Below are positions 31,207 to 33,473 of a DNA stretch of 64,000 nucleotides, one piece after another. The position numbers and the translations under genes were made by a program. Within the stretch, counting starts at the first letter, position 1. Every line of letters begins with the position of its first letter. The DNA lies in assembly GCA_900120395.1 (NCBI GenBank), contig LT635553.1, forward strand, positions 912,254 to 976,253, given 5' to 3'. The notes under the pieces are model-generated. The model did no database searches and was not told where the DNA came from. It was given only the letters and a program-made list of their open reading frames with translations. The DNA comes from Porphyromonadaceae bacterium FC4 (GTDB taxonomy: Bacteria; Bacteroidota; Bacteroidia; Bacteroidales; Porphyromonadaceae).

Positions 31207-31238
31207 TTTGGTGGTGTGAGAAATTGTTTCTACCTTTG
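31207..31238 (+). promoter_or_regulatory. rRNA promoter P1
   Basis: TTTG (31207-31210), 20 bases, then TACCTTTG (31231-31238): an exact fit to the Bacteroidetes primary sigma consensus. It lies 115 bp upstream of a second promoter of the same form. Confidence 0.8.
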
Positions 31239-31322
31239 CACTCGCAAACGAGCAAGAGTGTTTTCGTTTTTTCCACCTGCGGATGCGCAGGACAAGGTGT
31301 TTCGGGGATTTTTCTTCGATAT

Positions 31323-31353
31323 TTTGTGGGAAAGGAAACTTTTTGTACCTTTG
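31323..31353 (+). promoter_or_regulatory. rRNA promoter P2
   Basis: TTTG (31323-31326), 19 bases, then TACCTTTG (31346-31353). Tandem strong promoters are usual for rRNA genes. The predicted start near 31360 gives a leader of about 260 bases. Confidence 0.8.
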
Positions 31354-31411
31354 CAAAACCAACGCCAAAAAGCTGGCGTTAACGAGGAGGTCATAGACAT
31401 AATGAACAAGG

Positions 31412-31444
31412 GCATCGCGCCGTTTTCTGATTTTGGTGCGATGC
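31412..31444 (+). other. Leader hairpin in the rRNA transcript
   Basis: GCATCGCGCC (31412-31421) pairs with GGTGCGATGC (31435-31444). A purine-rich AACGAGGAGG and an ATG lie just before it, giving an 18-codon mini-ORF (31402-31458). Translation is doubtful. The hairpin may help antitermination or processing. Further down, 31527-31546 can pair with sequence after the 16S gene (see finding). Confidence 0.5.
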
Positions 31445-31617
31445 GAACAAACAAGTAGTACAAGGGATATTTTTATAGATATAAGAATGTGCCACGTTAA
31501 TTTTCAGACGAGAGACTAACTTGGGTGTTTACGTACAACCTAAGCCGAGGAGGACTTTCTTTTTGATCTAGGTAAAGGATATCGTCTGCTTTTATAGTAG
31601 ACACAATTATTTTACTA

Positions 31618-33153
31618 ACAATGGAGAGTTTGATCCTGGCTCAGGATGAACGCTAGCGATAGGCTTAACACATGCAAGTCGAGGGGTAACATGAGAGTAG
31701 CTTGCTACTTTTGATGACGACCGGCGGATGGGTGCGTAACGCGTATGCAACTTGCCTGTTAGCGGAGGATAACCCGGAGAAATTCGGACTAATACTCCAT
31801 ATTTTCCATATTCCGCATGGGGTGTGGAAGAAAGATTTATCACTAACAGATAGGCATGCGTTCCATTAGGTAGTTGGTGAGGTAACGGCTCACCAAGCCC
31901 GCGATGGATAGGGGAGCTGAGAGGCTGACCCCCCACATTGGGACTGAGACACGGCCCAAACTCCTACGGGAGGCAGCAGTGAGGAATATTGGTCAATGGA
32001 GGCAACTCTGAACCAGCCAAGTCGCGTGAAGGACGACGGTCCTAAGGATTGTAAACTTCTTTAGTAGGTGAGTAGAGACAGGTACGTGTACCTGTAGGCA
32101 AGTAACCTAAGAATAAGTATCGGCTAACTCCGTGCCAGCAGCCGCGGTAATACGGAGGATACGAGCGTTATCCGGATTTATTGGGTTTAAAGGGTGCGTA
32201 GGTGGTATTGTAAGTCAGGGGTGAAAAGCTATAGCTCAACTATAGTCTTGCCTTTGAAACTGTGATACTTGAGTGTAGATGCTGTGGGCGGAATGCGTAG
32301 TGTAGCGGTGAAATGCATAGATATTACGCAGAACTCCGATTGCGAAGGCAGCTCACAAAGTTACAACTGACACTGATGCACGAAAGCGTGGGGATCAAAC
32401 AGGATTAGATACCCTGGTAGTCCACGCCGTAAACTATGATTACTCGGAGTATGCGATACAATGTATGCTCTCAAGCGAAAGCGTTAAGTAATCCACCTGG
32501 GGAGTACGTCGGCAACGATGAAACTCAAAGGAATTGACGGGGGCCCGCACAAGCGGAGGAACATGTGGTTTAATTCGATGATACGCGAGGAACCTTACCC
32601 GGGATTGAAATGTATACGCCGGACTTATGAAAGTAGGTCTGTTCACTTCGGTGACGTATATGTAGGTGCTGCATGGTTGTCGTCAGCTCGTGCCGTGAGG
32701 TGTCGGCTTAAGTGCCATAACGAGCGCAACCCTCATTGTTAGTTACCAACAGGTAGTGCTGGGGACTCTAACGAGACTGCCGTCGTAAGGCGAGAGGAAG
32801 GTGGGGATGACGTCAAATCAGCACGGCCCTTACATCCGGGGCGACACACGTGTTACAATGGTGAGGACAGAGGGCAGCTCTCAGGCGACTGACTGCGAAT
32901 CTCCAAACCTCATCTCAGTCCGGATCGGAGTCTGCAACTCGACTTCGTGAAGCTGGATTCGCTAGTAATCGCGCATCAGCCATGGCGCGGTGAATACGTT
33001 CCCGGGCCTTGTACACACCGCCCGTCAAGCCATGGAAGTCGGGGGTACCTGAAGTGCGTGACCGCGAGGAGCGTCCGAGGGTAAACCTGGTGACTGGGGC
33101 TAAGTCGTAACAAGGTAGCCGTACCGGAAGGTGCGGCTGGAACACCTCCTTTC
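31618..33153 (+). rRNA. rrs: 16S ribosomal RNA
   Basis: Universal blocks are present in order: AGAGTTTGATCCTGGCTCAG (31625), ACTCCTACGGGAGGCAGCAG (31960), GTGCCAGCAGCCGCGGTAA (32132), ATTAGATACCCTGGTAGTCC (32404), AAACTCAAAGGAATTGACGG (32520), GCACAAGCGGAGGAACATG, TGTACACACCGCCCGTC (33010) and the anti-SD CACCTCCTTT at the end. Length is about 1536. Ends are placed by analogy with E. coli numbering and may be off by a few bases. The sequence type is Bacteroidetes and looks like Porphyromonas. Unusually, no tRNA-Ile/Ala, 23S or 5S gene follows; a terminator and polA come next. Confidence 0.97.
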
Positions 33154-33437
33154 TGGAGCCATTTCGAGAGGAATAGTTCTCTGTTATAGATGGTTTAGGT
33201 GGTAGACATTCGGAGGTTGGTCTTCCGAGTCTGAAGGGTCACGGTCGTGGGTGTATGCCCATGTGTGACCGAAGTGGTTCATGCTTCTGCATGGGTTGGT
33301 TGCTGCTTTGTGCAGTATGCTCCTATGTAGCCTGCGTGACTACTTGTTTGTCGTCCTTGTTTATTTTTTTTCTATCTTTTCGGATGGATAATGTCTCTTC
33401 CTTTTTCATATTTTCCGAGCATATCTTTTTGCTCTAT
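33154..33437 (+). other. 16S 3' flank without tRNA or 23S
   Basis: I searched this stretch by eye for tRNA-Ile, tRNA-Ala and the start of 23S and found none. 33192-33207 (GGTTTAGGTGGTAGAC) can pair with the leader at 31527-31546, which would form the long-range processing stem around pre-16S. Several local hairpins are present. The T-rich part from 33340 is not coding. Confidence 0.6.
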
Positions 33438-33473
33438 CAGTTTGTCTTATCCTGAAGACAGACTGTTTTTTTT
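33438..33473 (+). terminator. Intrinsic terminator of the 16S transcript
   Basis: An 11-bp stem, CAGTTTGTCTT (33438-33448) with AAGACAGACTG (33455-33465), with loop ATCCTG, is followed by eight T residues. The single non-Watson-Crick pair is a wobble in plus-strand RNA, so it is oriented for the 16S transcript. Confidence 0.85.

Follow-up and report, generated by a model that had tools for sequence, protein, structure and literature searches.

Linked and unlinked rRNA genes

Unlinked rRNA genes have reportedly been surveyed in a 2020 article in the ISME J. Both the typing of long-read spacer amplicons and ideas about balanced rRNA synthesis presuppose that 16S and 23S are linked in one operon. 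According to the main text of PMC7761764, 270 of 15,521 complete genomes have a mixed and 574 an unlinked rRNA organisation, a 'mixed' genome being one in which some operons have a 16S-23S spacer of >1500 bp. As cited in the same text, the 16S gene of Buchnera aphidicola is independent of the 23S gene and has its own promoter and terminator (Munson 1993, via PMC7761764), like the gene described here, and Wolbachia has separate 16S and 23S-5S units (via PMC7761764), a probable further likeness to the genome under study. Neither Porphyromonas nor Bacteroidetes is named in that main text. A full-text literature search for Porphyromonas and unlinked rRNA operons, of incomplete coverage, returned a single paper, which by title concerns haloarchaea, and within this coverage the arrangement has apparently been little noticed in the Porphyromonas family. 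Nevertheless, unlinked or mixed rRNA organisation is an already recognised class, and the 16S gene described here is a member of it.

The 16S unit and its surroundings

The window, i.e. the whole 64-kb stretch of DNA that was analysed, covers C4:912254-976253 of a 2.12 Mb genome in four contigs, from a bacterium of the Porphyromonas family. It contains a 16S rRNA gene that is very likely a genuine, functional and unlinked transcription unit, within a genome whose rRNA organisation is mixed. The gene is complete (31618-33152, plus strand), with a full-length Rfam SSU match (RF00177, 1481 bits, model positions 1-1533). It is full length, conserved and accompanied by a predicted processing stem, all of which are expected of a functional 16S. 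There is no tRNA in the entire window and no Rfam match to 23S or 5S, although the window runs 30.8 kb beyond the 16S, which bears out the initial annotation of a stand-alone gene lacking tRNA-Ile/Ala, 23S and 5S. Since no 23S lies within 1500 bp 3' of it, the gene falls under the definition of unlinked (16S-23S distance >1500 bp); LSU matches in the genome are at C4:361880 and C4:662282, and the window 16S is at C4:943871.

Two putative promoters precede the gene on the plus strand, P1 (TTTG-N20-TACCTTTG, 31207-31238) and P2 (TTTG-N19-TACCTTTG, 31323-31353). No other plus-strand site in the 64 kb fits the pattern TTTG-N17-23-TANNTTTG, and the tandem consensus promoters proposed initially are upheld. 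The consensus of the Bacteroides housekeeping sigma factor is TTTG / TAnnTTTG (PMC7366714). A scan for sigma-70 promoters was uninformative (three matches vs 3.5 expected), as is expected for Bacteroidota. A boxA-like leader element, TCATAGACATAATG (31391-31404, plus strand), follows the promoters and precedes both 16S and 23S genes here and in the related genomes G002 and G007. The leader (31482-31579) and trailer (33153-33287) arms of the plus-strand transcript are predicted to form a pre-16S processing duplex of 78 pairs, with an energy of -74.0 kcal/mol vs -57.5 +/- 5.6 for shuffled sequences, 1 of 300 of which was equally good. A shorter processing stem had been proposed in the initial annotation, and all 15 of its pairs fall within this longer duplex.

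Downstream of the gene, the first part of the 16S-tRNA-Ile spacer (33153-33370, plus strand) is common to the linked copies of the genome, and homology stops at 33370. An intrinsic terminator with an 11-bp stem and T8 occupies 33438-33473 on the plus strand, as claimed at the outset; its stem (33438-33465; fold z-score -4.95) is the longest among six terminator-like sites in 30.9-33.7 kb. Thus, judged by sequence only, the 16S has a promoter and a terminator of its own. The next gene, polA, is outside the rRNA unit (33598-36381, plus strand; Pfam DNA_pol_A with 5'-3' and 3'-5' exonuclease domains). It starts with an ATG at 33598 and is preceded by a promoter-like site of its own, TTGG-N20-TACCTTTG (33542-33573, plus strand), in agreement with the initial annotation.

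Several other features were observed in the vicinity. Just 5' of the rRNA unit (27391-30937), neighbouring genes encode domains of a sialic-acid-specific acetylesterase and of an N-acetylneuraminate epimerase (NanM). A repeat of ~80-90 bp, found 5' of rRNA leaders, is present at 31036-31116; in inverted orientation it is 81-83% like the sequences that follow 5S genes in this genome, and it recurs close to the left end of contig C3. On the minus strand, 46399-46585 matches the Rfam family Bacteroidales-1 (suggested 6S RNA), barely over the gathering score.

Stand-alone units in related genomes

The strongest argument that the arrangement in the window is real is the occurrence of stand-alone 16S genes in relatives. 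Nine other genomes of the same family contain a total of 14 16S genes that are not followed by a 23S within the 3-10 kb examined, both in the same genus (three in G002, two in G009 and one each in G003, G008 and G011) and in the sister genus (three in G028 and one each in G018, G019 and G020); G002 and G028 are single-contig genomes. These copy counts were obtained by pattern searches and by inspection of the loci, as the initial LSU and SSU searches across several genomes scored just a few candidates in each genome. Stretches of N with round lengths (2,500 and 5,000 bases) occur in the relatives (L081, L097, L125-L127); they look like masking and were excluded as evidence. The units vary in that they are followed by no tRNA, by one tRNA-Ala or by tRNA-Ile and tRNA-Ala. 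At two of the loci (L118 in G009 and L119 in G011) a single tRNA-Ala(GGC) is present, and not the usual Ile(GAT)-Ala(TGC) pair.

When one scanner was applied throughout (stem of at least nine pairs, within 400 nt downstream), a terminator was detected at 14 of 15 stand-alone units, that of the window included, and at none of the 18 linked operons; among 1000 random stretches, 56 (5.6%) had one. The lone exception is G018, where visual inspection shows a long perfect stem and just four T. The same gene follows the G018 unit and one of the G028 units, which indicates that one stand-alone 16S was passed on at the same position in different species. In addition, two stand-alone 16S cassettes of G002 (L077 and L096), at different chromosomal places, are 99.4% alike over 1,875 nt, from the leader to ~109 nt beyond the 16S, which indicates that cassettes can be copied as units. 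None of the congeners examined has a 16S before polA, and the gene after polA is conserved together with polA, so the position of the window unit is not conserved among the genomes examined.

Complementary units are also present in relatives. In G002 and G028 there are 23S-5S units without a nearby tRNA or 16S, and a TAACTTTG or TACCTTTG site lies 236-311 nt before each of the stand-alone 23S matches; those of G002 also have the leader element TCATAGACATATTG, which precedes linked 23S genes. In the genome of the window, both ends of contig C3 (L110, C3:1-900, and L111, the last 900 bases) carry a promoter, a boxA-like element and a 23S leader, directed outward. This leader, ~195 nt long, is 97-98% identical to that of copy C and 96-97% identical to that of copy B, the two linked operons of the genome, after which the contig ends. 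Neither a tRNA nor a 16S precedes the 23S leader at the C3 ends, where the preceding sequence is ordinary chromosomal DNA. Since both ends point outward, C3 is probably flanked by two stand-alone 23S-5S units missing from the assembly; two such units, with their 23S genes unassembled, are the simplest reading. Together with the relatives, these leaders support a true unlinked rRNA gene, the first of the explanations offered initially.

Linked operons and the reliability of the assembly

The remaining three rRNA loci of the genome are gapped or scrambled, being interrupted by Ns and, in one case, containing a spacer fragment in the wrong place. Repeats cause such damage in short-read scaffolds. 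Copy B (C4:359-362 kb) comprises a 16S, tRNA-Ile, tRNA-Ala, the start of a 23S, a gap and a 5S, the 23S being interrupted by 198 N after ~130 nt. In copy C (C4:660-666 kb) a single N cuts off the 16S at nt 635, and the 23S is interrupted by a piece of spacer that includes part of tRNA-Ile and is bounded by two single Ns (L011:4486-4754), a clear scaffolding error. At C4:150.6 kb, an orphan 5S is followed by one N and then by a truncated hsdS (type I restriction specificity gene); two tyrosine-recombinase-like ORFs are found near these genes (L009:2609-7964, C4:150.6-156.0 kb), features that suggest a restriction locus subject to phase variation and a join that is unreliable. The 16S copies of this genome may be undercounted, as contig C1 and 1,500 of the 1,579 bases fetched from C2 are N. 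A search of a plasmid collection gave nothing beyond generic 16S matches. A look elsewhere in the genome for 23S-5S genes and other operons, as advised in the initial annotation, yielded linked loci and stand-alone 23S leaders, with the loci damaged. The linked operon of copy B, beside the unlinked 16S, makes the genome a mixed one.

With the other three rRNA loci in this state, a misjoin in the window was a serious possibility, and the doubt about the assembly raised at the start was a fair one. An ordinary 16S-tRNA-23S-5S operon could have stood before polA, its 3' part skipped by the assembler or gap closer. The gaps, the shortened 23S and the misplaced spacer fragment of the same assembly are in keeping with such an error, as is the correction of rRNA misassemblies in published P. 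gingivalis genomes, in which rRNA operons were reported to be stable (PMC5771137). However, the window locus contains no N, and its trailer has variants absent from both other copies, the last of them ~13 nt before the end of homology at 33370, so that copy-specific sequence reaches the junction. Beyond the junction the sequence is unlike that which follows the 5S genes, terminators are present at the equivalent place in the stand-alone units of other species, and the genome itself also has stand-alone 23S leaders. An assembly artefact is consequently unlikely.

Other explanations for the locus

It is more doubtful still, and very improbable, that the gene is a decaying remnant, i.e. a 16S left behind when a linked operon recently lost its tRNA-23S-5S part and now turning into a pseudogene. 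The leader, the 16S and the first part of the spacer are indeed common to the linked operons, with abrupt divergence at 33370. Nevertheless, the 16S is intact, differing from copy C at just two sites over the comparable 635 nt (and from copy B at 12 sites over the full length); the promoters and processing stem are retained, the terminator is strong, and comparable units persist in two genera. The loss of 23S-5S from an operon, which was among the initial proposals, may describe how the unit originated, but not its present state, because the 16S is intact and the unit is equipped with a terminator of its own.

Possibly an inversion split one operon into two halves, the 16S of the window and the orphan 5S at C4:150.6 kb, although the N join at that place leads into the truncated hsdS and the ends of C3 are better partners. 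The collapse of an operon in the assembly, joining the 16S to a post-5S terminator, is contradicted, since the three post-5S tails of the genome are 94-99% alike and 33371-33473 resembles none of them, so that its terminator is not a post-5S one.

Proposed expression and origin

On the reading of a genuine, unlinked unit, its anatomy and its recurrence in relatives allow a course of expression to be proposed. Transcription would start at one or both of the two housekeeping-type promoters, and the transcript would cross the boxA-like leader element, which may act like boxA in antitermination. RNase III would then cut the leader/trailer duplex, freeing the 16S, and the transcript would stop at the terminator 5' of polA. 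The 23S and 5S rRNAs would be supplied by the two linked operons and by separate 23S-5S units, which share the leader element and have a promoter of their own. The 16S unit probably originated when a linked operon was split or partly duplicated inside the 16S-tRNA-Ile spacer, before tRNA-Ile, and its leader and 16S probably stay nearly identical to those of the linked copies through gene conversion.

The chances seem about even that this applies more widely, and that in Porphyromonas and its nearest relatives the rRNA operon has repeatedly split at the 16S-tRNA spacer, with 16S and 23S-5S cassettes, each promoted and terminated separately, kept alongside linked operons. Such cassettes would be inherited and duplicated as units, and the RNAs of the two subunits could as a result be regulated independently.

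Comparison with known systems

A host-associated family in which linked and split units are found together offers a natural test of the role of co-transcription in ribosome balance, and methods based on 16S-spacer-23S amplicons would miss the stand-alone 16S copies. Buchnera has one 16S gene and lacks linked operons, and Wolbachia has one copy each of 16S and 23S-5S, again without a linked operon; the genome of the window differs from both in that linked and unlinked copies coexist. It belongs with the mixed genomes as defined in the main text of PMC7761764, in which, as here, a 16S stands apart from 23S while linked operons are present in the same genome.
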